Positions 31,580-50,963 of a stretch of 64,000 bases of DNA are shown piece by piece. The translations under genes were made by a program, and so were the position numbers. The notes beneath the pieces were generated by a model. It ran no database searches. It worked only from the letters and a program-made list of their open reading frames with translations, and was not told where the DNA came from. The stretch is from Paraburkholderia edwinii (GTDB taxonomy: Bacteria > Pseudomonadota > Gammaproteobacteria > Burkholderiales > Burkholderiaceae), in contig NZ_CP080096.1 of NCBI RefSeq assembly GCF_019428685.1, positions 2,728,001 through 2,792,000 of the forward strand, written 5' to 3'. Within the stretch, counting starts at the first letter, position 1, and every line of letters begins with the position of its first letter.

Positions 31580-32743
31580 CTATTCCCGCTGGTCCGTGGC
31601 GAATAGCCCCTCAAGCAGTTCGTCGTAGCGCGCGATCAGCTCGAGGTTGGTCGCGAGAAATCGCACGATCGCCTTGCGCTGTTTTGCGCGATACGACTGC
31701 CAGTCGTCGTCGTGACGACGGATCGCATGGACCAGTTGGCGCGCACCTGCCTCGACGTCGTTACCCTCATAGTAGTAACCGATTTCGCGGCACAGCTGCG
31801 CGTTATGCACGAGCGCAAAGCCATTCCAGCACGCGTCAAAATAGAAGTAGTTGAGCGCGAGCCCCCACTGGTGCGAGATCACGATATCCGTGTGCTCAGA
31901 CAGAAACTGCGGCGTCTCGTAGCGGCCAACGAAGCTCGCCTTGCCCGCCTTCACGATGTCAAGGTACTGCGCGATGCCGATGAATTCAGGGCTATGGCGC
32001 GCGAGGTGTTTCGCGTTCGTCACGTGCAGGTGTGCAATTGCGTCCCTATCGCTGCGAAACGCCTGTTCGGCAATCAGCAGTGGATACAGGCAGAACTTCA
32101 GCACGTCGATGTTCGGCTCCATCACCGTCAGGCGCTTCTTCGTGCGATCGGCGACGTCCGGCGTTGCGATTTCGCGCGGACGGTATTCGCCTTCGAACGG
32201 CAGGTCGCGCGTACGCATGTTCAGACACATCGGGTCCCAGACGAACGGCACTTCACATACCGGCACGCGCCGCAATGTGCCGAGAAAACTCGCGGTCGTT
32301 TCCATTACCTGCGGAATGGCCCACACCGCGTCGTACTGCTGGTTGATGAATACCGTGTCGGCGAGACGCCGGTTGAAGATCATCGCCTCCATCATCTGCA
32401 CGTATTCGGGCCCACAGCAGTAGCTGACGAGCTTCGTGCCGCGCGCTTTCAGATAGCGTGTTTGTTCTTCGCTGATCTGACCGCCGAGTTCGATGAGCAC
32501 ATCGAGCGCGTCTTTGACGTCCTCGAACTGACGCACGGGGAAGCGCGCCGTATCCCAGGGCAGCACGCCGGTCAAGGCGACCGAAGTCGTATTGACGATC
32601 GCCACCGAATGCCCGAGCGGCGAGTGCTGGAAGAGTTTTGCTAGGTACAGCGCATTCTGCTTGATGCCGTTGACCCACATGCCTTCCGTTTCGCTGCGAA
32701 TGCCGATCGTGATGCCGATTCGCAAGGCGCGTTGCTGTGCCAT
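31580..32743 (-). CDS. DUF2827 protein, paralogue 1 (putative glycosyltransferase-like)
   Basis: 387 residues, no signal peptide. Conserved blocks shared with two paralogues in this locus: an N-terminal strand and loop (RIGITIGIRSETEGMWVNGI), a FVWDP motif near residue 190, VMEPNIDVLKFCLYPLLIAE, and a C-terminal block with DIVISHQWGLALNYFYFDA and NGFALVHNAQLCREIGYYYE. The last part resembles the donor-binding half of GT-B glycosyltransferases (a small-residue PLVHN loop followed by GYYYEG). DUF2827 is a Burkholderia family of unknown function, and glycosyltransfer is my inference. It is last in the adhesin locus, 43 bp after paralogue 2. Confidence 0.82.
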   Translation of the reverse strand: MAQQRALRIGITIGIRSETEGMWVNGIKQNALYLAKLFQHSPLGHSVAIVNTTSVALTGVLPWDTARFPVRQFEDVKDALDVLIELGGQISEEQTRYLKARGTKLVSYCCGPEYVQMMEAMIFNRRLADTVFINQQYDAVWAIPQVMETTASFLGTLRRVPVCEVPFVWDPMCLNMRTRDLPFEGEYRPREIATPDVADRTKKRLTVMEPNIDVLKFCLYPLLIAEQAFRSDRDAIAHLHVTNAKHLARHSPEFIGIAQYLDIVKAGKASFVGRYETPQFLSEHTDIVISHQWGLALNYFYFDACWNGFALVHNAQLCREIGYYYEGNDVEAGARQLVHAIRRHDDDWQSYRAKQRKAIVRFLATNLELIARYDELLEGLFATDQRE

Positions 32744-32786
32744 GTCGTGTTCTCCGTTCTTCGATTCTGATTGGCGCAGTGAGGGC

Positions 32787-33941
32787 TCAGTAAGCGAACG
32801 CGGTGGCGCGGGCTGGCTTGGCGCTCAGTTGCAACACACGTCGCGCGTAGCATTCACGGTTCGCTGCATGAAGCGAGCTCAAGGTTGCGATGAAGTCGCG
32901 TGAACGGCGCAGATAGTTCGTGTGATCCGCGTCATGTTCATGCGCAATGCGCAGCAGCTGTTTCGCGCCCGCCGGAATATCCGAGCCCTCGTAGTAATAG
33001 CCGATGTCTTTCAGCCACGGCGAGTTATGCACGAGCGGATAGCCGCCATACAGCGCGTCGAGATACACGAAATTCTGGTCGTTCTGCCACTGGTGGCTCA
33101 CCACCACATCGGCGAACTGGCTCATATAGCCGGCGAAGTCGTGACGGCTGTCGAGATGCACCTTTTCGTTCTTGTGCAGATCGAGGGAACGCACGAGGAA
33201 CGTGAAGGTCATCTGCTCGCTCATCTGTACGGTGTTGAGCAGGTTCAGGCGTGCAATCGCCGCGGGTTCCATCCGGAATGCGGTATCACACACCAGCGCC
33301 GGAATCGCAAAGCACTTGACCACCGAGATATTCGGTTCGAACACCGCAACGCGCAGCGCGCGCGGCGTGCTGTCCTCGGCGACGTGCTCCGCCGGTTTAT
33401 AGCCGAAATGAAGGCCCGCCTCCTTTACCACCTGCGCGCGCCGCTCGAGAAAGACCGGATCCCACAGATAAGGCACTTCAAACACGGGGCAACGATGCAG
33501 CGCCTCGAGCATCGGCGCGAGTGCGCGATCCTTCGGCAGAATCCACACTTCATCGCAGCGCTGCGCACGCGAGAAAAAGCCCCGTTTCTTGAAGACGGTC
33601 GACTCGATCAAGCCAACATAGGGCTGCCCGCAACATATGAACACCACTTTCTTGCCGAGCGCGCGCAGGTAATCGACCCATTCGACATCAAGTCCGCCGC
33701 CCATCTCGATCGCGACATCGATGCGATCCGTCGCGGCACGCATCGGCACGAGCGGGAAGCCGAACGCCGCCTGCTCGGCCTCGAGTGGCAACGCGCTCTG
33801 GTCGCCACAATTGAGAAGAATGACATCCGTCACCGCGGGCAAGGCCCGCAGCAACTGCGCAAGGAAGAACACGTTCTGGCCGAGCCCGTTTTCCCAGATG
33901 TTCTGGCCTTCGTGTGTCAGCACTGATATTCCAATCCGCAT
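32787..33941 (-). CDS. DUF2827 protein, paralogue 2 (putative glycosyltransferase-like)
   Basis: 384 residues from ATG 33941, with GAAAGGAAAGG upstream. Start RIGISVLTHEGQNIWENGLG; VPYLWDPVF near residue 175; VFEPNISVVKCFAIPALVCD; then ADVVVSHQWQNDQNFVYLDA and GGYPLVHNSPWLKDIGYYYE. The pattern is that of a two-lobed Rossmann (GT-B-like) enzyme, cytoplasmic. It is separated from the OmpA-like gene by 288 bp containing two terminator-like hairpins and an AT-rich repeat, so with paralogue 1 it likely forms its own transcription unit. Catalytic activity is inferred, not shown. Confidence 0.82.
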   Translation of the reverse strand: MRIGISVLTHEGQNIWENGLGQNVFFLAQLLRALPAVTDVILLNCGDQSALPLEAEQAAFGFPLVPMRAATDRIDVAIEMGGGLDVEWVDYLRALGKKVVFICCGQPYVGLIESTVFKKRGFFSRAQRCDEVWILPKDRALAPMLEALHRCPVFEVPYLWDPVFLERRAQVVKEAGLHFGYKPAEHVAEDSTPRALRVAVFEPNISVVKCFAIPALVCDTAFRMEPAAIARLNLLNTVQMSEQMTFTFLVRSLDLHKNEKVHLDSRHDFAGYMSQFADVVVSHQWQNDQNFVYLDALYGGYPLVHNSPWLKDIGYYYEGSDIPAGAKQLLRIAHEHDADHTNYLRRSRDFIATLSSLHAANRECYARRVLQLSAKPARATAFAY

Positions 33942-33989
33942 GATCGACCTTTCCTTTCGTTCTCTGATTGGCGAAACTGCCACCTGCTT

Positions 33990-34048
33990 GTGCGTTTTTA
34001 TTGCGCGCTTTTATTGCACTTTTATCTGCACTTTTGTGCAGGCGCCCT
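33990..34048 (-). repeat. AT-rich tandem element upstream of DUF2827 paralogue 2
   Basis: On the minus strand, copies of a degenerate 11-12-base word follow each other: GTGCAGATAAAA, GTGCAATAAAA, GCGCGCAATAAAAA, CGCACAAG. A TGCACAAAAGTGCA palindrome begins the array. It stands out from the GC-rich surroundings and lies about 50-105 bp before the gene, where a promoter or operator would be expected. Confidence 0.45.
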
Positions 34049-34129
34049 ATTACTGCATCGGCGCCCGCGGCCCGTCGTCTTTCCGTCACACTGCGCTTGT
34101 CCGCTGCTGCCTGCTTTCCCGCTGCCGGG

Positions 34130-34160
34130 AAAAGAGGGCGACGGCCTCGCGGCCATCGCC
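34130..34160 (-). terminator. Rho-independent terminator-like hairpin
   Basis: On the minus strand GGCGATGGCC, loop GCGA, GGCCGTCGCC (one G-U wobble), then CTCTTTT. It lies downstream of the OmpA-like gene and of a first hairpin at 34163-34218. Confidence 0.6.
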
Positions 34161-34162
34161 CA

Positions 34163-34218
34163 TAAAAACCGTGCCACTTCTGATGCTGACGGAGACACAT
34201 CGATGCGGGGTGGCACGG
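34163..34218 (-). terminator. Terminator-like hairpin after the OmpA-like gene
   Basis: Perfect 9-bp arms (CCGTGCCAC and GTGGCACGG) enclose a 32-base loop and are followed on the minus strand by TTTTTAT. It starts 12 bp after the stop of the OmpA-like lipoprotein gene. The large loop makes it weaker than the second hairpin just beyond. Confidence 0.5.
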
Positions 34219-34229
34219 CCAGAGAAGCG

Positions 34230-34739
34230 TTACTGCGACTTCACTTTCTGCTCGTTGAGCACGATCTCGACGCGCCGGTTCTGCGCGCGCCCTTCGGCCG
34301 TCGCGTTCGACGCAATCGGGTTCGCCTTGCCGAAACCGTCCACCCGCACCGAGCCGTGCGTTCTCATGCCATGCACCGCGAGGTATTTCGCGACCGACAG
34401 CGCACGCTGCTCCGATAACTCCTGGTTGTGCGTATCCGAGCCGGACGCGTCTGTATAGCCAGCGATGCTGATCGAGTCGATCGTGATGTGGCGCGTGCCT
34501 TCGATCAACCGGTCGAGTGCGATCACGGCGGACGCGGTTAGCGTGGCGCTGTTCGTTTCGAAATTCGCGTCGCCGCGCAATGTCAAACGCTCCGTGTGCG
34601 CCGGCGTGGCGTTTGCGGGCTGCGTGTACTCCACTGGCCTCGGTTCTACGCGCTGCCCGCGCGACACCTGCGGCGGTGTGGACGAACACGCCGCAAGCGT
34701 TGCAACGGCACACAGTGCGATCATTTGTGGTTTCAACAT
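34230..34739 (-). CDS. OmpA-like (Pal-type) peptidoglycan-binding lipoprotein
   Basis: 169 residues. Signal peptide with lipobox LAAC (Cys18). A short Pro-rich linker follows, then an OmpA C-terminal domain (about 55-165): NFETNSATLTASAVIALDRL, ISIAGYTDASGSDTHNQELS with the diaminopimelate-binding Asp, and the NRRVEIVL end. It has no beta-barrel. It would tether the outer membrane to peptidoglycan. It sits between DUF2827 paralogues 3 and 2 inside the adhesin locus, 39 bp after paralogue 3. I infer that it steadies the wall around the giant fibres. Confidence 0.9.
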   Translation of the reverse strand: MLKPQMIALCAVATLAACSSTPPQVSRGQRVEPRPVEYTQPANATPAHTERLTLRGDANFETNSATLTASAVIALDRLIEGTRHITIDSISIAGYTDASGSDTHNQELSEQRALSVAKYLAVHGMRTHGSVRVDGFGKANPIASNATAEGRAQNRRVEIVLNEQKVKSQ

Positions 34740-34778
34740 TTCCCCGTTTCCCTTTTGTAAATGGCTAATCTGGTCGAG

Positions 34779-35903
34779 TTATCGATAAAGCGCTTCGATT
34801 TCGGCGGTGTAGTGCGTGACGTTGGCCGGTGCCTCCGGGTCTAGCGTCGCGAGAAAATCGCGTGCGGTCTGTTTGTAGTCGGCGAGATTCGTGTCGTGCT
34901 CAACGAATGCGCGCCGCAATGCAAGCGCGCCATCGCCGCAATCAAAATCCGCATAGCGGTAGCCGCAATAGCCGATAAACGACGAGTTGTGAATCAGCGG
35001 ATAACCGCCGTAGAGGGCTTCGTAGTACACGTAGTTCTGTCCGTTTTCCCAGTGATGAGCGACGACTGCGTCGGCTTGCTGCGCCATGATGTGATACACG
35101 GGCAGGCGTGGCTCGAAGGTCGCGATACCGTGGCGCACGAGATCGAGGCTGCGCGCGAAGCCGAAAAACACGTTGTCCTCTTTCAGGTGAAACGTGTTGA
35201 ACACGCGCAGCACTTCGATCATGTCCGGGTCCTGCCGATGCGCGACATCGGCGACCAGCATCGGAATGTGGCTTGTTTTCACCATGCAGATGTTCGGCTC
35301 GAGTACTGCGAGGCGCCAGCGCCGCCGGCCGGGTTGATACGCGAAACTCTTCGACGCACCGGCTGCGCTGATCGAGCGTTCGAGCAGCAGCGGGCTCCAC
35401 AGATGCGGCATCGCGCGCACCGGCGCGCGCATCGTCGCCGCGTAGTAGTCGGCGCAGGTCGCTTCGAAGGCCGGCAGCGTCCATACCGCGCTGTACGGCG
35501 TCTCTGAAACGAGCGTGCCGTGCGGCAGGTTGAACATCATGCGTTCGATGTCGATCACATAATCGTTGGCGACGCGCATGCCGATTACATGGCCGCCGCG
35601 CTCGCGAAACGCACGCGCCCAGTTCGCGTCGAGTTGCGCGCTCAGTTCGATCACGACGTCGAGCTTTTGCTGCGCTGTTTCCATATCGATGACCGGCGCC
35701 GGCGCGAGTTCGAGGAATTCGTTAGCCGTATCGATTCGGCCGTCGCCGCCTTTGACCAGAAACACTTCGTCGACTACAGGCGAGCGCTTGAGCAGCATCA
35801 CCATAAAGAAGCAGTTCTGGAAAATGCCGTTTTCCCAGATCGATTGCGCTCCGCTACGCAAGTGAATCGTTACACCCACCTTCAAACGCCTGCTGTTTTT
35901 CAT
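34779..35903 (-). CDS. DUF2827 protein, paralogue 3 (putative glycosyltransferase-like)
   Basis: 374 residues from ATG 35903. Shares all family blocks: KVGVTIHLRSGAQSIWENGI, FFMVMLLKRSPVVDEVFLVK, MPHLWSPLL, VLEPNICMVKTSHIPMLVAD, then ADAVVAHHWENGQNYVYYEA and GGYPLIHNSSFIGYCGYRYA. In the last block the usual GYYYEG becomes GYRYAD, the main departure from the other two. It lies 65 bp downstream of adhesin 1 and directly upstream of the OmpA-like gene. About 85 bp of its coding DNA near residues 31-64 recurs as a relic between the two adhesin genes. Confidence 0.82.
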   Translation of the reverse strand: MKNSRRLKVGVTIHLRSGAQSIWENGIFQNCFFMVMLLKRSPVVDEVFLVKGGDGRIDTANEFLELAPAPVIDMETAQQKLDVVIELSAQLDANWARAFRERGGHVIGMRVANDYVIDIERMMFNLPHGTLVSETPYSAVWTLPAFEATCADYYAATMRAPVRAMPHLWSPLLLERSISAAGASKSFAYQPGRRRWRLAVLEPNICMVKTSHIPMLVADVAHRQDPDMIEVLRVFNTFHLKEDNVFFGFARSLDLVRHGIATFEPRLPVYHIMAQQADAVVAHHWENGQNYVYYEALYGGYPLIHNSSFIGYCGYRYADFDCGDGALALRRAFVEHDTNLADYKQTARDFLATLDPEAPANVTHYTAEIEALYR

Positions 35904-35968
35904 TGTTTTCTCCCTGAACGTGCCCGTCACACGACCGTCTTAACGCCTGACTTCAGTGACCCATTCCG

Positions 35969-38900
35969 TCACCAGTAATACCCGACACCCGCGCCCATCG
36001 ACACACCCGCGGAACTCACGCCGGCGCCCGCCTTGATCTTCAGGTTCTTCGTGATACGCGCGTTCACGCCTAACGCCGTTGCGCCATAACCGTGGTAAGT
36101 CGCTGCGCCGATACCGATCGCCAGCGTCTTGCCCGGATCGACTTCCGGAATCATCGTCAGCGCAACGGCCGCGGCAATACCTGAATAGGCGTTGCGCGCC
36201 ACGCTATTGACGCTCGACTGCACACCGCGCAGCTGGTTCATGGTGACCGCGTCGGTGCCGTTGATGCCGGGGGCGACGTTGGTGATCCGGCGTTCGTTGT
36301 TCGGCGAACCGACCGACACCGTGTTTTCCTCGTTGGCGATCGAGCCTGCGCCGAGCGCGACCGAGTTCGGGGCGGTGGCCGACGAGTTCGCGCCCACTGC
36401 CGTCGCGCTTTGTGCGGATGCCGACGAACTCGCGCCGAGTGCGGTGCTGCTCTCCGCCGACGCCGATACGTGCCAGCCGAGCGCCGTCGCGTTCGATTGC
36501 GATGCCGTGGCGCCCGCACCGACGGCGCTTGCGTTGGTGGCGGTTGCTGCTGAGCCCGTGCCCAGGCCGGTGCCGCCGTCCGCGGTGGACGTGTTGCCGC
36601 CGCCAGTGCTCATCGATGCCACGGCCTGCGACAGCGAACCCACATTGCTGTCGGTGGTGCTCAGGCCTGTCGACAGCGAGGCGACATTGCTGTTGGTCGT
36701 CGATAACCCCGTCGACAGGGAATCGACGCCGCTTTGCGCCGTGCTCACCGCGCTCGACGTCGAAGTCGACAGCGAACCCACCGCGCTGGCGGTCGTCGAT
36801 ATGCTGGTCGATAGCGCATTTACACTGCTTTGCGTGGTGCCGATGGTGGTCGAGGTGGACGTCGACAGCGAGGCGACGGTGCTGTTCGTGGTCGACAAGG
36901 CGCTCGATACCGCCGTCGACAGCGACGTCAGCTGGCCGAAGTTCACCGCGTCGTTCACGTTTACACCGGCCGCGACGTTGGCGAGACGCACGGGTAACGT
37001 TGTGCCAACGCCGCCGAGCGTGACCTGCGTGTGCGTCGTGTCGTCGTACTGCACGGCCAGATTCGACAGCGTGCTGAGCGAAGTCGAGAGCGTCGATACG
37101 TTGCTATCGGTGGTCGACAGACCCGTCGACAGCGATGCAACGTTGCTGCCGGTCGTCGACTGCGCGGTCGACAGCGAATCGATGCCGCTTTGCGCCGTGC
37201 TGATGCCGCTGGCAACGGTGCCCGACAGTGCGGTCGACAGCGAGCTGATGCCCGTCGAGGTCGACGTGGACAGCGTGGTCAGCTGACTGACGTTCACCGC
37301 ATCAGTAGGATTCACGCCTGCCGCGACGTTGGTCAGCGTGACGGGCGCGGGGGCACCTACGCCGCCGAGCGTGACCTTCGTGTGCGACGCGTCGTCGTAT
37401 TGCACGGCGGCATTGGACAGCGTGCTCAGTGCGGTTGAGGTCGAATTCGACAGCGCCGTGACATTGCTGTTCGTGGTCGACAGGCCGGTGGACAACGAGG
37501 TCACACCGCTTTGCGCCGTGCTGATGCCGGTTGAGGTGGACGTCGATAACGTAGCCAGATTGCTGTCGGTCGTCGAGAGGCCCGTGGACAGCGACGCGAC
37601 GTTGCTGTTGGTCGACGAGAGCGCCGTCGACAGCGAATCCACCCCGCTTTGCGCGGTGCTGATGCCGCTGGCAGCCGTTTGCGTCAGTGCAGTCGATAGC
37701 GAAGTGATGCCGGTCGAAGTCGATATCGACAGCGTCGTCAGTTGACTCATGTTCACCGCGTCGGTCGGGTTCACGCCCGCCGCGACGTTGGTAAGCGTGA
37801 CCGGTGGCGCACCCGTGCCGCCGAGCGTGACCTGCGCATGCGTTGTGTCGTCATACTGAACCGCATTTGCCACACCTGTGGACAGCGAACCGAGCGCGGT
37901 CGACGTCGAAGTCGACAGTGCCGTGACAGTGCTGTTCGTGGTCGACAGACCCGTGGACAGCGACGCGACGTTGCTGTCGGTCGTCGATTGCGCGGTCGAC
38001 AGCGAATCGATGCCGCTTTGCGTGGTGCTGATGCCGCTAGCGACCGTCCCCGACAGCGCGGTCGACAGCGAGGTGATACCCGTCGAGGTCGACGTGGACA
38101 GCGTGGTCAGCTGGCCGACGTTTACCGCATCGGTCGGGTTCACGCCGGCTGCGACGTTCGTCAGCGTGACCGGCGCAGTGGCGCCCGCGCCGAGCGTAAC
38201 CTTCGTGTGGCTGGCGTTGTCGTACTGAACCGCGGCGCTCGACAACGTGCTCAATGCGGTCGAGGTTGAATTCGACAGCGCCGTGACATTGCTGTTCGTC
38301 GTCGACAGGCCGGTGGACAGCGAGGTCACGCCGCTTTGTGCCGTGCTGATACCCGTCGATGCCGACGTCGACAGCACGGCGAGATTGCTGTTGGTGGTCG
38401 ACAGCCCCGTCGACAGTGAGGCGACGTTGCTGCCGGTCGAGGACAGTGCCGCGGACAGCGATCCGATGCCGCTTGCCACCGATTGCGTGAGCGCCGTCGA
38501 CAGCGAACTGATACCGGTTGAGCTCGACGTGGACAGCGTGGTCAACTGGCCCATGTTCACCGCATCGGTCGGATTCACGCCGGCCGCGACGTTCGTCAGC
38601 GTGACCGGCGCAGTGGCGCCCGCGCCCAGCGTAACCTTCGTGTGGCTGGTGTCGTCGTACTGAACGGCGTTTGCCACGCCGGTCGACAGAGAATTGATCG
38701 CGGCTAAGATTGCCGTGGAAAGTGTCGCCAGGTTGCCGGTTGCAGCCGACACCGAGCTCGACAGCACAGCCACATTGCTCGTGTTGGTCGACAGCCCCGT
38801 GGTCAGCGCATTCACGCCGGCCTGCGCCGTGCTGATGCCGGTCGATGCCGAGGTCGACAGCGTCGCCACGCCGGAATTCGTGGTGGAAAGACCCGTCGAC

Positions 38901-39934
38901 AATGACGCAGCGGCGGTCGATGCCGTCGTCGACAGCGTGCTCAACTGACTGAAGTTCACCGCATCGGTCGCGTTCACGCCCGCTGCGACGTTCGTCAGCG
39001 TGACGGGCGCGGTGGCGCCGGCGCCCAGCGTGACCTTCGTGTGGCCGGCGTTGTCGTACTGCACCGCGTTGGCCACGCCGGTCGACAGCGAACCGATCGC
39101 CGTCGACGTCGAATTCGACAGCGTCGTGACAGTGCTGTTCGTGGTCGACAGGCCCGTGCCCAGCACGCCCACATTGCTGTTCGTCGTCGACAGCGCCGTG
39201 TTCAGCGCGTTCACACCGCTTTGCGCGGTGCTGATGCCGGTCGATGTCGAGGTCGACAGCACGGCAACGCTGCTGTTCATCGTCGACAGGCCCGTGGACA
39301 GCGAGTTGACTCCGCTTTGCGCCGTGCTGATGCCCGTCGATGTCGAAGCCGACAGCACTGCCACATTGCTATTGGTGGTCGATGCCGCGGTAGACAATGA
39401 ACTCATGCTGGTCGACGTGGCCGTCGACAACGTGAAGAGCTGGGATCCATTTATCGCGTCTGTGCTGCTTGCGGACACCGCGCCCGCAACCAGGCCGGTG
39501 ATATTTGTGGCAGTCACGACACCGAGCATCGAAATTCCACCGGCACCCGTCAACAGAAGCGATCCGTTGTCAAATCCTTGTATGCTGGCCTGCGGCGCGG
39601 TTCCGGTCGCACCATTGCCGAGAATGAAATCCCTGTTCGCGAGGCAACCTGCAACAACCCCAGTGGTGCTGTTTGAGACCCACCCTGAACCGCTTGTACC
39701 GGTGCCTCCTGGACATAACTGCAAAACGCCCCCAGCCTGCGCCGTGGACGAAACACCCAACACACCTGCAACAGCGAAAGCGATCGCCGACAGACAACCG
39801 AGCGTCCTGCGCCTTTCAAGGCGTGCACGGCCAGAGCCTGCCTCCCCTCCCTTGCCCTGCCCCCGCACATCCTCTGCGACGACCGCAATCTTCCCGGTTC
39901 GGCGGTTCACCACCAGACGATAGACTTTATTCAT
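35969..39934 (-). CDS. Trimeric autotransporter adhesin 1 (YadA/BpaA-like)
   Basis: 1321 residues from ATG 39934 ([15 protein letters not shown]). An extended signal peptide region (ESPR) runs to about residue 68, cleaved at STAQA. A very long stalk is built of Ser/Thr-rich heptad-like text ([18 protein letters not shown]), interrupted by six copies of a block that starts VQYDD, passes HTKVTLG and [12 protein letters not shown], and ends in a DAVNxxQL neck motif. Near the C-terminus is a YadA-like head ([20 protein letters not shown]), a neck ([13 protein letters not shown]), then the four-strand anchor ending GAGVGYYW. It forms a trimeric surface fibre. Shares about 1.39 kb of identical DNA with adhesin 2. 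Confidence 0.93.
37812..39205. repeat. 1.39-kb tract identical to 41919-43312
   Basis: Read line by line, the DNA of adhesin 1 from 37812 to 39205 equals that of adhesin 2 shifted by 4107 bp, with no difference seen. Mismatches start at once on both sides (37811 and 39206). Flanking adhesin DNA is homologous but diverged. Confidence 0.88.
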
Positions 39935-39947
39935 TTTATTGGTTTTC

Positions 39948-40034
39948 CTTATCGATTCGGCCGTCGCCGCCTTTGACCAGAAATACTTTGTCGATTGCCG
40001 GCGAACGCCTGAGCAGCATCTACATGAAGAAGCT
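39948..40034 (-). pseudogene. Relic of a DUF2827 gene between the adhesin genes
   Basis: The minus strand reads FFM, stop, [20 protein letters not shown], then RID, matching paralogue 3 ([27 protein letters not shown]) at about residues 31-64. The DNA is close to 35738-35812. Nothing else of the gene remains, and the relic ends a few bases before the adhesin 1 start codon, so it now forms that gene's 5' leader. Confidence 0.82.
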
Positions 40035-40049
40035 GGCCGGTAACGCAGT

Positions 40050-40075
40050 AAAGAAATGCGCCCGCACGGGCGCAT
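40050..40075 (-). terminator. Rho-independent terminator after adhesin 2
   Basis: Perfect 9-bp stem ATGCGCCCG / CGGGCGCAT with a two-base centre (a tetraloop if the last pair opens), starting seven bases after the adhesin 2 stop and followed on the minus strand by TTCTTTAC. Outer complementary bases (TAACGC at 40041 and GCGTTA at 40079) could extend it. It should limit read-through into adhesin 1. Confidence 0.65.
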
Positions 40076-40081
40076 CCCGCG

Positions 40082-43000: not shown

Positions 43001-44074
43001 CGTCGACAATGACGCAGCGGCGGTCGATGCCGTCGTCGACAGCGTGCTCAACTGACTGAAGTTCACCGCATCGGTCGCGTTCACGCCCGCTGCGACGTTC
43101 GTCAGCGTGACGGGCGCGGTGGCGCCGGCGCCCAGCGTGACCTTCGTGTGGCCGGCGTTGTCGTACTGCACCGCGTTGGCCACGCCGGTCGACAGCGAAC
43201 CGATCGCCGTCGACGTCGAATTCGACAGCGTCGTGACAGTGCTGTTCGTGGTCGACAGGCCCGTGCCCAGCACGCCCACATTGCTGTTCGTCGTCGACAG
43301 CGCCGTGTTCAGTGCGTTCACGCCGCTTTGCGCGGTGCTGATGCCGCTCGATGTCGAGGTCGACAGCACGGCCACGCTGCTGTTCGTCGTCGACAGGCCC
43401 GTGGACAGCGAGTTGACTCCGCTTTGCGCCGTACTGATGCCCGTCGACGTCGAAGTCGACAGCACCGCCACATTGCTATTGGTGGTCGATGCCGCGGTAG
43501 ACAGTGAGCTCATGCTGGTCGACGTGGACGTCGACAAGGTGAAGAGCTGCGCTCCGTTTATCGCGTCTTTGCTCGTTGCGGACACCGCGCCCGCAGCCAG
43601 GCCGGTGATATTTGTGGCCGTCACGACACCGGTCATCGTAATTCCGGCAGTGCCCACCAGCTCGAGCAAACCGGTGCTGTATCCCGTTACACGCGCCGTC
43701 ACGTTCGGGAATGCATTGTTTCCGGTGGTACTTCCGGTATTGTTGAGCGAGAAAACAACGTTGGCGGGGACGGGGGTGCCGCAATCTAGAGCAGATCCAG
43801 CTGCGGCGCTGCCTGAGCCCCACGACGTACCGGCTGTACTGCCGCCTCCTGCACATAGATACAAGCCGCCCCCAGCCTGCGCCGTGGACGAGACGCCTAG
43901 CACACCCGCAACAGCGAAAGCGATCGCCGACAGACAGCCGAGCGCCCTGCGGCTTTCAAGGCGCACGCCATCTGAGCCTGCCTCGCCCCCGTTTCCCTGC
44001 CCCCGCACATCCTCTGCGACGACCGCAATCTTCCCGGTTCGGCGATCAGCCACCAGCCGATAGACTTTATTCAT
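40082..44074 (-). CDS. Trimeric autotransporter adhesin 2 (YadA/BpaA-like)
   Basis: 1330 residues from ATG 44074. Same plan as adhesin 1: ESPR signal ([15 protein letters not shown] to STAQA), a short unique N-terminal region (about 70-165, with [15 protein letters not shown] and a predicted beta-rich part), Ser/Thr-rich stalk with six VQYD...DAVNxxQL blocks, YadA-like head near the C-terminus ([20 protein letters not shown]), neck, and beta-barrel anchor ending GAGVGYQW. The N-terminal unique parts of the two adhesins differ most, which would give the fibres different tips. First adhesin gene of the locus, 164 bp after the EAL gene; an AT-rich stretch (44145-44185) in that gap may hold its promoter. 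Confidence 0.93.
41919..43312. repeat. 1.39-kb tract identical to 37812-39205
   Basis: Partner copy, within adhesin 2, of the identical tract. It encodes stalk blocks one to four of the six VQYD-type repeats (counted from the N-terminus), so the identity covers fibre shaft rather than tip or anchor. Confidence 0.88.
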
Positions 44075-44238
44075 TTTCCTTCTCTCCAAGGCAGTTCGCC
44101 ACGGCGCTTCCCAGCCCGTGCAAACGGAATCACCAGCAGCTTCTGGCGATCCCTATTTTTATTTCTATTCCTAACTATATTAAGTACTCGATCACCGACG
44201 ATCGACGCACACATTCCCACCGACATCAGACCCGCGAC

Positions 44239-45498
44239 TTACCCTGCTACCGCTCCATCCCCAAACGAACACACGATCAATTCCCCATGCATGCGCCCGA
44301 ACGCCGCAATACACCTGAGCAACCGCACTGACCGCTCCGGATGCTCTTTCCCTTGCCGCATCACCCCGGCCATCTCATCGCGCAACGACGCCGCGATCGC
44401 TGACCGCTTGCCATACACGCTGCTGGTCAGCCCGGTCACATAAGCGAGCTTCGCGAAGCTGCGCAGCTTGCAGCACACCATCGGCTCGACGACCGCGTCA
44501 GCGTTCCGCTCGAATAGCTTGACGGCCCACTCGACCGCCGCGCCTGTCATCGGCAACGAGGCGTCGTGCGCCATCTCCGTCTCCAGGATCAGATCAGTGA
44601 GTTGCGCAAGCGGCATGAGGCTGATTTCATGGCCCGGCAGGCCCGCCGAATCGCATGTGCCGGCATCGCACATCGGCTCGCGCGGCTCATGCTGCACGTA
44701 CGCCGCAACGCTATGCGGCTCGCCGATATAGAACCCCTGCACACAATCGACGCCCGCATCGCGCGCCACCTCGATCGCTTGCGCGCTCTCGATCCCCTCG
44801 AGCACGACGTACGGCGCGATATCTCGGGCGAGCAGGACAAGCCTCTCAAGCTCATCATTGCGCGCGCCCCGATCGTCACTGCCCGCCAGCAATTCGCCGG
44901 CGATCTTCACAATGTCCGCCGAACCGATTTGCGAGCCCGTCTCGATACCGCAACCGGCTCCGAAGTCGTCGATCGCAACGCAGCAGCCAATCTTGCGCAA
45001 GCGCTTGACGAACGCGTGGCCAGCCGCATGGAGCGGCGCGGTCTCGGTGATCTCGATCACAAGCCGCCGCGCGACATCCGGCATCGCCGCGAGATCGAGG
45101 AACGTCGATTCCCACCACTCGTCTTCCACCGCGCTTTGCGCCGAAATATTCGCGCCCAGATGCACATTCGAATGCGTCTTCAGCAATTCGATGACGCGCG
45201 TCACCACATGGCGGTCGAGGCACTGCATCATGCCGAGCCGCTCGAGGCTCGGAATGAAATTCCCCGGACACTCGTGCGTTTGCCGATCTTCCCGCAGCAA
45301 ACGCACGAGGCATTCGAAGTACCGCACCTCTCCCAGGTCTCCCACGCTACACACCGGCTGACAGAACAGCTCGATTCGATCGCTTTCGATTGCGTCGATG
45401 ACCGTACCCGCGATTCGCATGTCACGGTCCAGATCCGCGCGAACCCGTGCATCCCATGACGCGGGTGATTCTTGTAATGGTTCGATCAAGTTGTTCAT
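44239..45498 (-). CDS. EAL domain protein (c-di-GMP phosphodiesterase-like)
   Basis: 419 residues from ATG 45498; the frame extends upstream without homology. The EAL fold is complete. The signature is ECL (YFECLVRLL); the Asn of ANISAQS, Glu of IEITET, Asp pair of IDDFGAG, Lys of DIVKI, Glu of VLEGIES and Gln of QGFYIG are all present, so most metal and catalytic residues survive. The change of Ala to Cys in EAL is mild, so activity is possible. A C-terminal helical region of about 140 residues resembles the HDOD-like part of YuxH-type proteins. Located between the regulatory genes and adhesin 2, it probably ties adhesin expression to c-di-GMP. Confidence 0.87.
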   Translation of the reverse strand: MNNLIEPLQESPASWDARVRADLDRDMRIAGTVIDAIESDRIELFCQPVCSVGDLGEVRYFECLVRLLREDRQTHECPGNFIPSLERLGMMQCLDRHVVTRVIELLKTHSNVHLGANISAQSAVEDEWWESTFLDLAAMPDVARRLVIEITETAPLHAAGHAFVKRLRKIGCCVAIDDFGAGCGIETGSQIGSADIVKIAGELLAGSDDRGARNDELERLVLLARDIAPYVVLEGIESAQAIEVARDAGVDCVQGFYIGEPHSVAAYVQHEPREPMCDAGTCDSAGLPGHEISLMPLAQLTDLILETEMAHDASLPMTGAAVEWAVKLFERNADAVVEPMVCCKLRSFAKLAYVTGLTSSVYGKRSAIAASLRDEMAGVMRQGKEHPERSVRLLRCIAAFGRMHGELIVCSFGDGAVAG

Positions 45499-45689
45499 GT
45501 CGTCGATTCCCCGATGTTCAATCTGGACTCCGCACCACTCATTCATCTGCGGAGTCGTTGTCGGAAGCATGAAACCTGGGGCCATCGATGTCCAGCTAAA
45601 CGCCACGGACTTCACCATCGTTGTGCTTCGTCAAGCGAGTGCCTGACGATTGTTAAGCCAAAGGCCGCACGAATTGACAATCTCCAGCA

Positions 45690-46295
45690 TCACTGTCGGA
45701 TCGGCTCGACCGAGATGAGCCGCGGCGCACCGCCCGGAATCGCGGCTGGATGCAATTTAACGCGCCAGTGCTGGTACCGGGCAAACGGCAGTTGCGCGAG
45801 CGCGCTCTTCACGAGGTAAGGCGCCGCGTGCTGCATCCCGGCCTCGCTGTCGCGGCTCGCCGCGCTGACCTTGTACACTTCGTCGCCGCTTGCCGGATCG
45901 AAGAAACGTAACGTCAGCGTGTGCCGCCACGCGCGGCCGAACCACACGAAACCTGCATCGCCCCCGCTTTGGCATACCCCGTCCAGGCAATCACCGGCGT
46001 CGACGCCGACGCTCGCCGGCCGCGTGTCATACGCGATCGACAACACGTACTGCGCGTTCCCCGCCCCCGTATCGACAAAGCCGTATCGGTTCAATTCACC
46101 GCGTACCAGATCCTCATAGCGCGCCTGATCCGCGTTCGCTCCCTGCACGGGCGAGCGCACGATTGCGTATCGAGGACCGAGTTGAAAATCACTCGCCGTT
46201 TGCGACGCGAGAACGTCGGTGTGCACGCCGGCGCAACCGGTGAGCATGCAAAGTCCCGCCGCTACGACTGCAAGGCCCATGAGCCGCTTTTTCAT
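45690..46295 (-). CDS. DUF4136 domain lipoprotein
   Basis: 201 residues. Signal peptide with lipobox LTGC (Cys21). The mature domain reads as DUF4136: DFQLGPRYAIVRSPVQGANA, VRGELNRYGFVDTGAGNAQY followed by VLSIAYD, and later TLTLRFFDPASGDEVYKVSA. An extra Cys pair (DCLDGVC) lies mid-domain. Probably an outer-membrane lipoprotein of unknown role. It follows the CHASE2 kinase gene by 51 bp and so belongs to the same unit; it may be part of the envelope-sensing module. Confidence 0.82.
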   Translation of the reverse strand: MKKRLMGLAVVAAGLCMLTGCAGVHTDVLASQTASDFQLGPRYAIVRSPVQGANADQARYEDLVRGELNRYGFVDTGAGNAQYVLSIAYDTRPASVGVDAGDCLDGVCQSGGDAGFVWFGRAWRHTLTLRFFDPASGDEVYKVSAASRDSEAGMQHAAPYLVKSALAQLPFARYQHWRVKLHPAAIPGGAPRLISVEPIRQ

Positions 46296-46346
46296 TTTCC
46301 CGTTCCTTCGACTGAACGCGGTCCAGTCATACCTTCAAAGAAAGAT

Positions 46347-48779
46347 TCACGCGGACGCTTCGTCGAACGCAGGCAGTACGATCGTGATCGCCGTGCCCTC
46401 GCCCACCACACTCGCAACACGAATGCCGCCGCCATGCCGCGTCACAACCGTCTTTACAAATGCCATCCCGAGTCCCGCGCCGCCCACCTCGGGACATTGC
46501 GCCTCGTGAAAGCGCTGGAACCGCTCGAACAGATGAACCTGCCGTTCGGCCGGAATGCCGTAGCCCTGGTCGCGCACGGTGCACCGCACTTGAGCCGGCG
46601 TCGCACCGGACGGCGATGCGTCCTGCTCGATCGTGCAGGTGATCTGTGTGCCGCTCGGGCTATATTTGACGGCATTGTTCATGATGTTCACCAGCACGCG
46701 CGTCATCATCGAACGATCGGCGTTAATCCAGTGGCCAAAATCATGCTCGTCGTATTGCAGGTCGAGGCGAATCTGCTTCGTTTGCGCCTGGGGCCACACC
46801 TCATCGCTCGCGTCCATCATGAGCTCCAGCAGGCTCACCGGTTCGAGCTCATACGTCTGCGATTCGGCGCGCGCGAGTCGCACGAAATCGTCGGCTAGCG
46901 CCAGCGAGCGCCGCGCATAGCGTTCGATACGCGACAGCAGTTCGCGCGTGTGCGCTGATTCGTTTGCACGTGCCCGCTCCATCTCCACCAGCGCGAGAAT
47001 CGACGCCTGCGGCGAGCGAACTTCGTGCGTCAGCAGACGCAACGCATCTTCGCGTTGCCGCTCGGCCGCATGCAGCGCCGTGACGTCGACGAGACCCGCA
47101 ATCCAGCCGGTCGCTTCGCCATATGCGTTCGCACGCTTCGCATAGCGCAGCAGAAGATCGCGCGCATGGCGATCGCGCACCTCGCAACCCTGCTCCATCA
47201 GCCTCGAAAACTCGCGGCGTGCCGGATCGAGCATCGCAGGCCAGTTCGCACGGACCCACACATCGGCATCGTCGCCGGCATCGATCGTCTTGATGAACAT
47301 GAGATCGCCGAGCGCCGCACGCAGCGATTTACCGACCGGGTTTCCCGCATTGAGGGCCTGAAAGTAGCGCTTCGCGGCATGGTTCGCGATCACGACCACC
47401 CCTTGCACGTCGCTGACGAGAATCGGTTCCGGCACGCTATCGAGGCTGTCCCAGACAAAGCGCTTCATGTCCTGCACGCGCTGCGCGGCCTGCGCCATCA
47501 GCGCCATATGCTGCTCGAGCACATCGCCGCCGAACTCGCGGCGCCGCCGCGGTGTCTCGGGCAGCAGATACGGTTCGTCGGCAAGGCGCTGCAGTTCCTT
47601 GCGCAGATACGCCATCGTCATCTCGAGGCGTCGCCAGTTCCAGATCGGGTACACCACCACCAGCCCCGCGATCGCCGGCATCGGCGAGATCCAGAGTTGC
47701 GCGCCGAACAGTGCCGCCGCGCTGCACAGCGCCGTGATCGCACCTAGCACAGCCGTCAGCAGCAGCGCACGCAACGGCGACAGCATCAGCAGTCCGGCCA
47801 GCAGGGCGACAAGCGGTGCAAGCGAAAACGCGAACACCACGAGGCCGCTCGCCGGATCGATCTCGCGCCCGGTCAGCAACGTATCGAGGACGGCCGCGTG
47901 AATATAGACACCGGGCATCGGTCCGAGCGTTCCTGACATCGGTGTCGAGAACCGGTCGTACAGCCCCGACGCCGTGACACCAATCAGCACAATCTTGCCT
48001 CGCAGCTCATCGGGCGATACGCCACCGTCGAGCAGCGTCGCGAAAGACACCTTCCTGTACGGGGCAGCAAGCGGGCTGAACGGAATCAGAAAGCGCCCCT
48101 CGTCACTGCTCGCGAACGTACGCGCCTCGCTCCTGCGTGCCGCCGCGCTTACGCTGCTATAGCTGTCGTGCAGCTTAATCGTTCCATCGCCGATCGCGCG
48201 CGCGAGCGGCGCCATCAATTGCGGCCAGCGTGTATTCGCATCGCCTTCGGAAAGCGCGACGCTGCGTACGACACCGTCGCTGTTCACTTCGAAGTTGATA
48301 TGTCCGAGACCCGCCGCGGCGCGCGCCAACGGCGCGACCGGTTTAATCGCGGCACGTTCTCCTCGACTGTCTTGCGGCGTCAGCAGGATCGGCAAGTAAG
48401 TCGGGCTCGCGGACATCGCGTGCGCAAGCATCGCATCGTCGCCGCTCGGCTCGGTGAACAGCACGTCGTACACCACCGCAGCCGGCTGCGCCTTCGCGAT
48501 TTCGTCGAGTACGTGTGCATGCACGCTGCGCGGCCACGGCCAGCGTCCGAGCTTCGCAATGCTCTCGTTATCGATTTCGACGACAACGATATCGGGCAAC
48601 GCACGCCGCAGATTCAAACGCAGATAGCGGTCGAAAATCAGATGATCGATGCTCGCCGTCATGCCGTACAACGCGCCAGGCAGGATCACGGCGAGACCGA
48701 GACAGCCGACGCATAACCATTCGTAGAAAAATCGCCGCCCGACCGGCAAGCCGAGCCACGTGCGCGGATAAAAGATCAT
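46347..48779 (-). CDS. CHASE2-domain sensor histidine kinase
   Basis: 810 residues from ATG 48779. One N-terminal membrane segment (LCVGCLGLAVILPGALYGM), a periplasmic CHASE2 domain (about 45-310, with GRWPWPRSVHAHVLDEIAKA), then three clustered membrane segments (about 325-400), a PAS domain (about 460-570) and a kinase core: H-box LLTHEVRSPQASIL, N-box NNAVKYSP, G1 DQGYGIP, F-box LFERFQRFHE and G2 GGAGLGMAFV. CHASE2 senses an unknown periplasmic signal, often with an exported FecR partner, which is encoded just upstream (19-bp gap). Its output should be the OmpR-type regulator at 50265. Confidence 0.92.
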   Translation of the reverse strand: MIFYPRTWLGLPVGRRFFYEWLCVGCLGLAVILPGALYGMTASIDHLIFDRYLRLNLRRALPDIVVVEIDNESIAKLGRWPWPRSVHAHVLDEIAKAQPAAVVYDVLFTEPSGDDAMLAHAMSASPTYLPILLTPQDSRGERAAIKPVAPLARAAAGLGHINFEVNSDGVVRSVALSEGDANTRWPQLMAPLARAIGDGTIKLHDSYSSVSAAARRSEARTFASSDEGRFLIPFSPLAAPYRKVSFATLLDGGVSPDELRGKIVLIGVTASGLYDRFSTPMSGTLGPMPGVYIHAAVLDTLLTGREIDPASGLVVFAFSLAPLVALLAGLLMLSPLRALLLTAVLGAITALCSAAALFGAQLWISPMPAIAGLVVVYPIWNWRRLEMTMAYLRKELQRLADEPYLLPETPRRRREFGGDVLEQHMALMAQAAQRVQDMKRFVWDSLDSVPEPILVSDVQGVVVIANHAAKRYFQALNAGNPVGKSLRAALGDLMFIKTIDAGDDADVWVRANWPAMLDPARREFSRLMEQGCEVRDRHARDLLLRYAKRANAYGEATGWIAGLVDVTALHAAERQREDALRLLTHEVRSPQASILALVEMERARANESAHTRELLSRIERYARRSLALADDFVRLARAESQTYELEPVSLLELMMDASDEVWPQAQTKQIRLDLQYDEHDFGHWINADRSMMTRVLVNIMNNAVKYSPSGTQITCTIEQDASPSGATPAQVRCTVRDQGYGIPAERQVHLFERFQRFHEAQCPEVGGAGLGMAFVKTVVTRHGGGIRVASVVGEGTAITIVLPAFDEASA

Positions 48780-48798
48780 GCGGGCCCCGCCACGAGCG

Positions 48799-50268
48799 TC
48801 ACCGCGCGAGCTGGAATGAGCGGATCGCACTACTTTTCTGGTAGAAGCGGCCATTCTCAAACTGCTCGACAACGATGGTCCAGTAATAGAGGCCCGGCTG
48901 CAGATCCGACACGACGATTTCGGCGTTCTTCAGATCCGTTCGATCGACAATCGGATTGCGCAGGTCCGGCGTGCTGGCGAGCACGAAGCGATAGCGCGTC
49001 GCGACGTGCGCACGGTCGGCAAGCCAGCGGAACTCGAATTCACGGCTGCCAAGACGCCGCGCCGACGTGGTGATACCGAGTCGACGGCGCTCGAACGCGT
49101 AGATCTGCGGTAAGCCTTCAAGGCCGTTTTCATCGATCGCCGACACGCGCACGAAGTAGGTGCCGTCCGGCACATCGCTGAACGTCGTATGCGGTACACG
49201 CACCCGCTGATCGCGCATCAGATCGAGCAGGTCCGCGTCGCGCGCGATCTGCACGCGATACGCGCGCGCGCCGCCAGACGGCAGCAAATCGGGCAGCAGA
49301 TCGAATGCGACATCCTTCCCGTCCTGAACCTTGCCTGGATTCGCGAGCTCCGGCGACGCCAGCAATTCGACTGGCACACCCACGCGGCCGGACGCATCGG
49401 TCACATTGCCGAACTTCGCGCGGATCAGCTGCGCGGACGCCTGCAGCGGCTGGCCGGGCGGTGCGATATTGCCGCCCAATGCGAGCGCCGCATCCACGCC
49501 GACCGCGCCGTCGAGCACCTCGACTGCAGTCGAGCGATTGTCGTTGTCGTAATTCACGCGAAAGCGCGTACCGCGCACACCCGCCACCACCGACGGCGAG
49601 CGTATCTGGAAACGATCGGCGGGCTGCGTCGCATGCGTCACTTCGCTGTCGACCTCGCCACGCCGCAGCAGAATCACGCGATCTTTTGCACCGGTCAACG
49701 CAGTGCGGCGCAGCGTGCCGATCTCGATCAGGCTGTCCTGCGGCAGCGACAGATGCGAACCGTCTTCGAGTTCCAGCGTGACAAAGCCGTTATTCCCGGT
49801 GCGCAGTCGATCGCCTTCGCCGAGCGTCATGCCGACACTCACAGGCGTGAATACGTTCTCGCGGTAGGCATGCTCGGCTGGGCCGTTTGTCGCCACGATG
49901 CGCGCGGACTGAGGCTCCTTTTTAAGCAACGCAACCGGCAAGCGCAGCTCGATACCCGGCTGCAAGCGCCGCGACGCCTTCACGCGATTCAGGCTGCGCA
50001 GTGCCGCCCAGTCGCGCGGATCGCGCAGATAGCGCGACGCGATATCGTAGAGCGAATCGCCGGACTGCGTGACATAGGTCACCGTCGCGGACGCTGTTCG
50101 AGTACCTGCGTCTTGTGCGCTCGCGGGCCCGGACAGCAGGCCTAGTGCCGCGGCAAGACAAAGACTGGTACGGCAAAATGCGAATGGCACAAATACATCG
50201 ACAGGGGTGCAGCGGTTCAATAGAAGCGCAGCGTGTGCCGGAGTTATCGCAAGCGGAGGAAGCTTCAT
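48799..50268 (-). CDS. LysM-FecR domain exported protein
   Basis: 489 residues; ATG 50268 overlaps the stop of the response-regulator gene by four bases (ATGA) and has GGAGGAGG upstream. A long leader ends at PASAQ (about residue 51). Then LysM (about 64-112, VTQSGDSLYDIASRYLRDPR), a FecR domain (about 140-255, DRLRTGNNGFVTLELEDGSH and SPSVVAGVRGTRFRV), and fibronectin-III-like beta domains to the end. LysM would anchor it to peptidoglycan, while FecR domains act as signal relays or co-sensors for CHASE2 proteins. With the kinase and regulator it makes an envelope-sensing trio. Confidence 0.88.
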   Translation of the reverse strand: MKLPPLAITPAHAALLLNRCTPVDVFVPFAFCRTSLCLAAALGLLSGPASAQDAGTRTASATVTYVTQSGDSLYDIASRYLRDPRDWAALRSLNRVKASRRLQPGIELRLPVALLKKEPQSARIVATNGPAEHAYRENVFTPVSVGMTLGEGDRLRTGNNGFVTLELEDGSHLSLPQDSLIEIGTLRRTALTGAKDRVILLRRGEVDSEVTHATQPADRFQIRSPSVVAGVRGTRFRVNYDNDNRSTAVEVLDGAVGVDAALALGGNIAPPGQPLQASAQLIRAKFGNVTDASGRVGVPVELLASPELANPGKVQDGKDVAFDLLPDLLPSGGARAYRVQIARDADLLDLMRDQRVRVPHTTFSDVPDGTYFVRVSAIDENGLEGLPQIYAFERRRLGITTSARRLGSREFEFRWLADRAHVATRYRFVLASTPDLRNPIVDRTDLKNAEIVVSDLQPGLYYWTIVVEQFENGRFYQKSSAIRSFQLAR

Positions 50269-50963
50269 AAATCCTCCTCCGTGATTTTTTCGAGCCGATA
50301 TCCGTACCCGTATACCGGGCTCAAGCGGTAGCCGTTCTCGGGACGCAGCCCGAGCTTGGCGCGCAACGATGAAACATGCGTGTCTATCGTCCGCGAGGGA
50401 ACATCGGTCGCCTGCTTCCAGACAACGTCCCTGATATAGGAGCGGGACAGCGGGCGACTCATATGCTGGAACAGCAGGAGCGCGAGTTCGAATTGCTTGT
50501 GCATCAACGTTACGGGTGTGCCGCGTACGATCACTACTTTCGACTTCAGATCGAATGCGATTTCGTCGAAAACCTCCATCGTGGAAGCATGATTTGACTG
50601 ATAGGTACGGCGCAGCAAAGACTTGACACGCGCGAGCAGAATTTCGGGCGAGACCGGTTTAACGACGTAATCGTCCGCGCCCGCATTCAGAATCATTGCA
50701 ATGTCCGCCTCCAGACTCCTGCTCGTCATGAAAAGAACGGGCACATGGTCGGATAGACTTTTACGTATCCATCGGAGCACCTCTTCACCCGACATATCGG
50801 GTACTTGCCAGTCGAGCACGAGCAGATCGAACGTCTGATGCCGTAGTTCCTTGACGAGTGCCGGTCCGGTCGAGTACGCGAGACAGCTATGTCCGACTGC
50901 GGACAAGGTTTGACAGATAAAATCCGCCTGCGCTGGATCGTCTTCCAGAACTGCGATTCGCAT
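50265..50963 (-). CDS. OmpR family response regulator
   Basis: 232 residues: an intact receiver (acidic pair in LEDDP, phospho-acceptor Asp in LLVLDWQVPDMSG, Thr in FMTSR, Lys in VVKPVSP) and a winged-helix DNA-binding domain with TIDTHVSSLRAKL and YGYGYRLEKI. It is first in the unit regulator, LysM-FecR, CHASE2 kinase, and is translationally coupled to the second gene. Likely partner of the CHASE2 kinase and regulator of the adhesin genes downstream. Confidence 0.93.
   Translation of the reverse strand: MRIAVLEDDPAQADFICQTLSAVGHSCLAYSTGPALVKELRHQTFDLLVLDWQVPDMSGEEVLRWIRKSLSDHVPVLFMTSRSLEADIAMILNAGADDYVVKPVSPEILLARVKSLLRRTYQSNHASTMEVFDEIAFDLKSKVVIVRGTPVTLMHKQFELALLLFQHMSRPLSRSYIRDVVWKQATDVPSRTIDTHVSSLRAKLGLRPENGYRLSPVYGYGYRLEKITEEDL

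Follow-up and report, generated by a model that had tools for sequence, protein, structure and literature searches.

What three proteins of the DUF2827 family contribute to a locus for surface fibres is the question raised by the 64,000-nucleotide stretch of the Paraburkholderia edwinii genome analysed here (contig NZ_CP080096.1; hereafter, the window), in which they are encoded beside two trimeric autotransporter adhesins (TAAs) with SLST-repeat stalks. We consider it likely that the three paralogues, DUF2827-a, -b and -c, are O-glycosyltransferases of the cytoplasm, dedicated to TAAs of the SLST type, a proposal first made in a preliminary description of the region and one to which the modelled fold and the co-occurrence data now lend support. 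Its computed basis is the fold of DUF2827-a, the homology of DUF2827-b and -c, gene linkage, and co-occurrence with one class of TAAs; from these we infer the activity itself, with catalysis, a donor sugar, O-linkage, an order of steps and cytoplasmic timing. The five genes at the centre of the proposal are as follows.

31580..32743, minus strand: DUF2827-c (P0001, 387 residues), PF10933 E 3.8e-136, clade c (support 1.0)
32787..33941, minus strand: DUF2827-b (P0002), open reading frame (ORF) to 33983, likely start Met15 at 33941, PF10933 E 4.2e-113, clade b (support 0.996)
34779..35903, minus strand: DUF2827-a (P0003), ORF to 35930, likely start Met10 at 35903, PF10933 E 8e-138
35969..39934, minus strand: TAA 1, ORF to 40075, with ESPR, eight YadA_stalk stretches, YadA anchor and SLST-repeat stalk; proposed substrate
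40082..44074, minus strand: TAA 2, ORF to 44089, with eight YadA_stalk stretches, YadA anchor (E 2.2e-16) and SLST-repeat stalk; proposed substrate

The DUF2827 proteins and adhesins of the window

All three DUF2827 proteins match their Pfam family over its full length (454, 378 and 460 bits against a curated cut-off of 25), and they are the only three encoded in this genome (8.3 Mb, two contigs), which has ten YadA anchors. Both adhesins have the architecture of type Vc autotransporters, namely an ESPR or signal, a coiled stalk and a YadA anchor, the ESPR scoring above the cut-off in TAA 1 and below it in TAA 2 (20.4 versus 25 bits). Since the ESPR begins at residue 48 of the first ORF and at residue 6 of the second, the translation starts probably lie inside the ORFs. 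At 92.7% DNA identity over 3560 nt, the two are close to being duplicates and, with 25 SLST motifs each, belong to the SLST-repeat class. Their stalks had been described as built almost entirely of Ser and Thr, which was an overstatement, the two residues making up approximately 38-39% of the passengers; this is nonetheless about twice the proportion found in the eight other TAAs of the genome (0.145-0.22). Hydrophobic residues and Ser/Thr each recur with a period of 14, a pattern that would fit a coiled coil with Ser/Thr at its surface.

Predicted fold and old paralogy of DUF2827

The earlier suggestion that DUF2827 proteins are GT-B-like is supported by a confident structure model of DUF2827-a (pLDDT 95.0, pTM 0.91), which has two facing Rossmann-like domains. 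All 50 rows of the VIA list of fold matches to this model are glycosyltransferases, some of them classed by the function of the named enzyme, and the matches include SdgB bound to a Ser-Asp peptide; O-GlcNAc transferases and UDP-GlcNAc 2-epimerases are also among the Foldseek matches. We note as a separate observation that the model matches an uncharacterised protein of 497 residues from Pyramimonas orientalis virus (A0A7L9AXF5; E 8.7e-22, TM 0.82, 16% identity), the next viral protein being far weaker (E 1.4e-9).

In GT-B enzymes, an acidic residue of the C-terminal domain binds the nucleotide ribose. The EX7E motif of GT4 enzymes appears in the DUF2827 consensus as N-x7-D/E, with N in place of the first Glu in the sole alignment found, and D/E304 pairs with the second Glu in hhalign at a probability of only 1.2%. 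At E up to 0.1, the window proteins match neither GT4 families of Pfam nor GT41 or HMW1C-type N-glycosyltransferase families of Pfam or NCBIfam, and none of the three matches another Pfam glycosyltransferase family.

In the family tree, a, b and c are each monophyletic (support 0.994, 0.996 and 1.0; 87 of 88, 80 of 81 and 63 of 63 members, respectively), the clade label being that of the nearest window paralogue and of little meaning for L119, L120 and L122, where identity is 33-36% (L and G numbers designate loci and genomes). Among 87 loci, many of them cut by contig or flank ends, 55 hold one gene of each clade, three have a second c beside the full set, 23 have a and b without c, four hold a alone and two hold other sets, so that all three clades are present in 58. 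The paralogues derive from an old triplication and have mostly been retained together, and since three old clades are mostly kept as a set, a division of labour is suggested in which, for example, one enzyme would add the first sugar and the others would extend it.

DUF2827 tracks one class of TAAs

DUF2827 was found in 6 of 300 genomes surveyed across the order, 6 of 398 across the phylum and 68 of 249 across the Burkholderiaceae, the last figure including four genomes (G314, G315, G354 and G334) in which nothing better than broken copies, a fragment or a sub-cut-off match is present. Neighbourhoods were examined in the best 80 of 319 loci, ranked by likeness to DUF2827-a and in some cases sharing one genome (four of them, for instance, in P. 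kururiensis); going by their titles, we take these to come from named genomes and metagenome-assembled genomes of Burkholderiaceae, Comamonadaceae, Sphingomonadales, Caulobacteraceae, Xanthomonadaceae and Neisseriaceae. A TAA-like gene lies within 6 kb of DUF2827 in 72 of the 80, with an anchor detected in 64 and a Ser/Thr-rich ORF lacking a detected anchor in the other eight. Four of the eight loci with no adhesin are short contigs or contig ends (L037, L038, L039 and L082), L053 has a broken third DUF2827 gene, and L090, L100 and L102 have no adhesin nearby. The loci are mutually related and their counts are not independent; the Cochran-Mantel-Haenszel (CMH) test given below is the only one that corrects for this, at the level of genus.

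The adhesins that accompany DUF2827 are of a particular kind. TAAs for comparison were identified by their anchors, so that composition played no part in the choice, those that are unlinked or from DUF2827-negative genomes being hand-picked from the best-scoring anchors and not a random sample; the anchor model was rebuilt for this purpose, and four of 40 DUF2827-negative loci (L171, L178, L187 and L188) were left out for want of an anchor. The median passenger content of Ser+Thr was 0.413 in linked TAAs (n = 68), 0.206 in unlinked TAAs of DUF2827-positive genomes (n = 34) and 0.216 in those of negative genomes (n = 36), and at least three SLST motifs per 1000 residues were present in 65 of 68, 7 of 34 and 0 of 36, respectively, the three linked exceptions (L066, L077 and L089) all being short pieces. 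An earlier, narrower comparison, from which L122 was dropped, gave Ser+Thr contents of 0.38-0.54 for linked (n = 11) versus 0.14-0.36 for unlinked (n = 34) TAAs. Charged residues (DEKR) account for a median of 3.2% of linked stalks (n = 58) versus 11.8% and 8.7% in two comparison groups. DUF2827 tracks one class of TAAs, that with Ser/Thr-rich, charge-poor stalks of SLST repeats.

The same association was found genome by genome, using a DNA pattern for SLSTGLST whose hits were counted in each of the 249 Burkholderiaceae genomes, with the backward pattern as control. Five or more sites were present in 42 genomes, 40 of them among the 68 DUF2827-positive and two among the 181 negative; of the 29 with at least ten sites, 28 are DUF2827-positive, and no genome had ten sites of the backward pattern. 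Within genera the association persists (CMH p 2.5e-12, odds ratio approximately 50; 189 of the 249 genomes tabulated, from genera with at least one DUF2827-positive genome, one single-genome genus having dropped out). As to the co-occurrence with YadA anchors at large, proposed earlier as a check, anchors are present in 65 of 68 positive versus 86 of 181 negative genomes, a less telling result than the tie to the SLST class.

Two SLST-rich genomes lack DUF2827. In one, G444 (L224), the SLST adhesin is interrupted by an IS66 transposase; in the other, G356, the SLST protein is an anchorless chimera (L225:6793-9396) consisting of an ESPR, a YadA head, an SLST stalk and, replacing the YadA anchor, an OmpA domain. 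The gene adjacent to the chimera is an IcmF-related one of type VI secretion. Conversely, YadA anchors occur elsewhere in all seven genomes checked in which no adhesin adjoins DUF2827 (those of L037 and L082 were left out of this check). Five of the seven encode SLST TAAs in trans, namely G007 (89, 48 and 36 motifs), G912 (46), G911 (31), G909 (11) and G913 (9), which fits DUF2827 acting in trans; G908 has a single SLST motif in an ORF ended by the contig end.

Mechanism and alternative explanations

On this basis, we propose that DUF2827-a, -b and -c, as enzymes of GT-B fold, would O-glycosylate the Ser/Thr of the SLST repeats of the stalk in the cytoplasm, prior to Sec and outer-membrane export; inspection of the DUF2827 proteins by eye showed no signal peptide. 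The three probably perform different steps, either a first sugar and its extension or the work of a hetero-oligomer. An OmpA-domain lipoprotein encoded between DUF2827-a and -b probably ties the TAA anchor to peptidoglycan, and the two-component system and EAL-domain protein of the locus probably time fibre production. More specifically, the genes may form a horizontally mobile O-glycosylation module dedicated to TAAs, in which a relay of a, b and c coats a coiled coil whose charged surface residues have nearly all given way to Ser/Thr (DEKR approximately 3%), such that glycans in place of charges provide solubility and stiffness; we give this version an even chance. Were it true, the known SLST adhesins would be glycoproteins, some of them modified by unlinked DUF2827 enzymes.

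Several observations weigh against the glycosyltransferase proposal. A DUF2827 sequence profile found no match among chains of the Protein Data Bank (PDB) at E up to 10, and its profile-profile comparison with eight GT4 proteins of the genome reached a probability of 1.2%, so that the assignment rests on the predicted fold. Fewer than five pattern hits were found in 28 of the 68 DUF2827-positive genomes, presumably in part owing to a limit on sensitivity, as the pattern covers one of several repeat forms, and the backward pattern reached five sites in one genome (G484, 3+2). Ser+Thr falls below 0.30 in 12 of the 68 linked TAAs; eight of these are short or cut pieces, and four (L043, L075, L087 and L088) exceed 1000 residues. 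G910 (L053) has two intact DUF2827 genes and a single anchor protein, which is devoid of SLST, and L123 (G333) has three DUF2827 genes with no adjoining adhesin, each of the three anchors of the genome lying in a frame of at most 256 residues. Glycosylated chains must moreover traverse the narrow YadA barrel, which would limit the size of the glycans.

Frequent DUF2827 genes in genomes that lack such adhesins had been named as a finding that would speak against the hypothesis. Such genomes do exist and are rare: three of 68 have no YadA anchor, and in one of them, G314 (L112), the only DUF2827 gene is broken. The other two, G408 (L119) and G452 (L120), each keep one intact, divergent DUF2827 gene, also a point against the proposal, and because they do so in the absence of anchors, DUF2827 may have a different use in some genomes. 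Type III secretion genes (PrgH, SopE-GEF-like) stand near DUF2827 in G408, the neighbour scan having covered L119.

A Glyco_transf_34-like protein and a methyltransferase-domain protein stand beside the DUF2827 trio of L123. Decaying copies are seen at L112, at L114 (G354; a DUF2827 fragment in a genome whose sole anchor is also a fragment), at L053 (third DUF2827 gene broken, no adhesin), at L098 (third DUF2827 gene truncated, beside a short anchor frame) and at L224 (SLST adhesin split).

The alternative that fares best, which we regard as unlikely, is that DUF2827 proteins are glycosyltransferases for another surface glycan, such as lipopolysaccharide (LPS), capsule or exopolysaccharide, that the fibre binds or is co-regulated with. 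The GT-B matches do include enzymes of LPS, teichoic acid and polysaccharide synthesis (such as WaaG, TarM and HepE), and FkbM- or tetratricopeptide repeat (TPR)-type proteins occur near DUF2827 in 15-16 of the 80 loci. However, the neighbours met most often in a survey with part of Pfam were the adhesin, in 72 of 80 loci, and, in 52, a small secreted protein, and DUF2827 follows the Ser/Thr-rich class of TAAs rather than TAAs in general, even when unlinked. Instances were seen at L216:14784-16781, L217:15420-17222 and L100:9481-11325, comprising TPR proteins, of which some include a stretch resembling Glyco_transf_9, and a protein similar to FkbM methyltransferases.

A slightly poorer prospect is that the fold serves no transfer reaction, DUF2827 proteins being either epimerases of sugar nucleotides or catalytically dead proteins that assist adhesin export as chaperones or adaptors. 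The fold is also that of UDP-GlcNAc 2-epimerases, which are in the Foldseek list, P0002 (DUF2827-b) has a sub-threshold NeuC match (E 0.025), the first Glu of EX7E is not conserved, and clade c deviates at positions 298, 306 and 316 within the donor-side motif. An epimerase, however, would give no reason for the tie to Ser/Thr-rich repeats, and 26 positions are at least 95% conserved across all three clades (including E211, N213, K218, H292, H314, N315, G323 and Y324), a pattern typical of enzymes.

The module does occur on plasmids: of 72,556 plasmid records searched by tblastn, 18 contain DUF2827, some being replicons of chromosome size, and on one plasmid, from Burkholderia ambifaria and typed as conjugative, genes for a YadA-like protein, OmpA, two DUF2827 proteins, a hypothetical protein, a third DUF2827 protein, another hypothetical protein and a TPR protein follow one another. 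That a Ser/Thr-rich TAA lineage merely shares this mobile segment with DUF2827, its stalk remaining unmodified, is nevertheless very improbable, for although repeats presumably expand readily, SLST TAAs distant from DUF2827 occur in positive (7 of 34) and not in negative (0 of 36) genomes and in five of the seven genomes whose DUF2827 locus has no adhesin, and the two SLST-rich negative genomes have a transposon-split adhesin and an anchorless chimera.

Remaining genes of the locus

The surface-fibre genes named in the preliminary description are all present on the minus strand (31580-50963) by Pfam matches; the twelve genes that it counted are eleven, as in its own list. The DUF2827 set lies at the low-coordinate end and the regulators at the high-coordinate end, the order being response regulator, LysM-FecR protein, CHASE2 kinase, DUF4136 protein, EAL protein, the TAA pair, DUF2827-a, OmpA lipoprotein, DUF2827-b and DUF2827-c. 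The other features are the following.

34136..34161, minus strand: terminator-like hairpin between the OmpA gene and DUF2827-b
34230..34739, minus strand: OmpA-domain lipoprotein, OmpA E 1.2e-19
44239..45618, minus strand: EAL-domain protein, EAL E 7.6e-40
45690..46295, minus strand: DUF4136 protein, termed a lipoprotein in the preliminary description, PF13590 E 2e-11
46347..48872, minus strand: CHASE2 sensor histidine kinase, CHASE2 E 2.7e-58, HATPase_c E 7.7e-24, weak PAS E 0.0046
48799..50268, minus strand: LysM-FecR protein, FecR E 4.9e-19, LysM E 8e-07
50265..50963, minus strand: OmpR/PhoB-type response regulator, Response_reg E 8.2e-22, Trans_reg_C E 3.1e-16

The EAL protein is presumably a c-di-GMP phosphodiesterase, its motif residues having been judged by eye. 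The hairpin is suggestive only, as the region has 13 terminator-like sites versus a mean of 16.9 in shuffles. Relatives of the regulator genes that the preliminary description included were found near few other DUF2827 loci of the 80; homologues of the OmpA lipoprotein (phmmer, with the window protein as query) were found near 10 of the 80. The nearest named locus among those 80, L025 of Paraburkholderia solisilvae, whose a, b and c proteins are 90, 86 and 85% identical to those of the window, also retains relatives of the EAL, DUF4136, CHASE2 kinase and OmpA proteins. The flanks (28775-31531 and 51427-54863) encode, on one side, a MalT-like LuxR regulator; the opposite side has genes for a metallophosphoesterase and an Lhr-type helicase. 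The window has no tRNA and no Rfam match at gathering scores.

Comparison with known systems

TibC and AAH are bacterial autotransporter heptosyltransferases (BAHTs), a class marked among other features by a dodecamer; in these systems, glycosylation takes place in the cytoplasm and the genes for enzyme and adhesin are paired. BAHTs are GT-B-like, hyperglycosylate Ser of a partner autotransporter adhesin, and depend on a beta-hairpin thumb and on an iron-finger whose ligands are cysteines (PMC4358343). DUF2827 resembles them in its GT-B-like fold and its autotransporter partner, a TAA-like gene lying within 6 kb in 72 of 80 loci, but this partner is a trimeric coiled-coil fibre of type Vc and is accompanied by three paralogues instead of one enzyme. 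Unlike BAHTs, DUF2827 proteins have no cysteine in invariant or nearly invariant columns (147 sequences), hence no counterpart of the iron-finger, and those of the window have no Glyco_transf_9 match.

A second parallel is provided by the serine-rich repeat loci of Gram-positive bacteria, in which a Ser-rich adhesin is encoded with several clustered glycosyltransferases that act stepwise and inside the cell. In the Fap1 cluster, the Ser-rich repeat adhesin is glycosylated stepwise by clustered glycosyltransferases (PMC5207161; also PMC7948813). The DUF2827 locus differs in that its enzymes all belong to one family, and neither an accessory Sec system nor GtfA/GtfB is encoded among the 11 genes here. 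SdgA/SdgB of Staphylococcus likewise represent a Gram-positive system and have no sequence match to DUF2827.

With regard to the accessory genes, the TAAs of the B. cenocepacia region BCAM0219-BCAM0228 are accompanied by histidine kinases, response regulators and a lipoprotein or outer membrane protein (PMC3404963), a combination that the window locus shares; the main text of that paper is free of the string 'glycosyl', and DUF2827 is not mentioned in it. The periplasmic, peptidoglycan-binding TpgA is described as securing the anchor of AtaA (PMC13082670). The putative role of the OmpA lipoprotein as a peptidoglycan clamp for the adhesin is modelled on TpgA by analogy.

The closest relatives of the window TAAs, in adhesin class and SLST repeats, are BoaA/BoaB and BCAM2418. 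SLST repeats are described for BoaA/BoaB (PMC2955633) and likewise for BCAM2418, whose Ser/Thr repeats have been suggested to carry O-linked glycosylation (PMC7142374); the passages covered name no responsible enzyme, and 'glycosyl' is absent from the main text of PMC2955633. Nor is an enzyme for SLST adhesins named in the portions seen of the CC-licensed PMC literature that pairs SLST adhesins or TAAs with glycosyltransferases, and within that literature DUF2827 itself appears in one paper, on a database, where a table places it under 'Uronic acid pathway'. The kind of system is thus known, while DUF2827 as an enzyme family, the set of three clades and the link with SLST TAAs appear to be new within the literature searched. 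If the proposal is correct, a protein family listed as being of unknown function would gain one, a new family of protein glycosyltransferases would be defined, and the Ser/Thr-rich SLST stalks of a studied class of adhesins would be explained. DUF2827 is put forward as a candidate enzyme for BoaA/BoaB and BCAM2418, and the published suggestion that the BCAM2418 repeats are O-glycosylated (PMC7142374) would become directly testable, because candidate enzymes can now be named.

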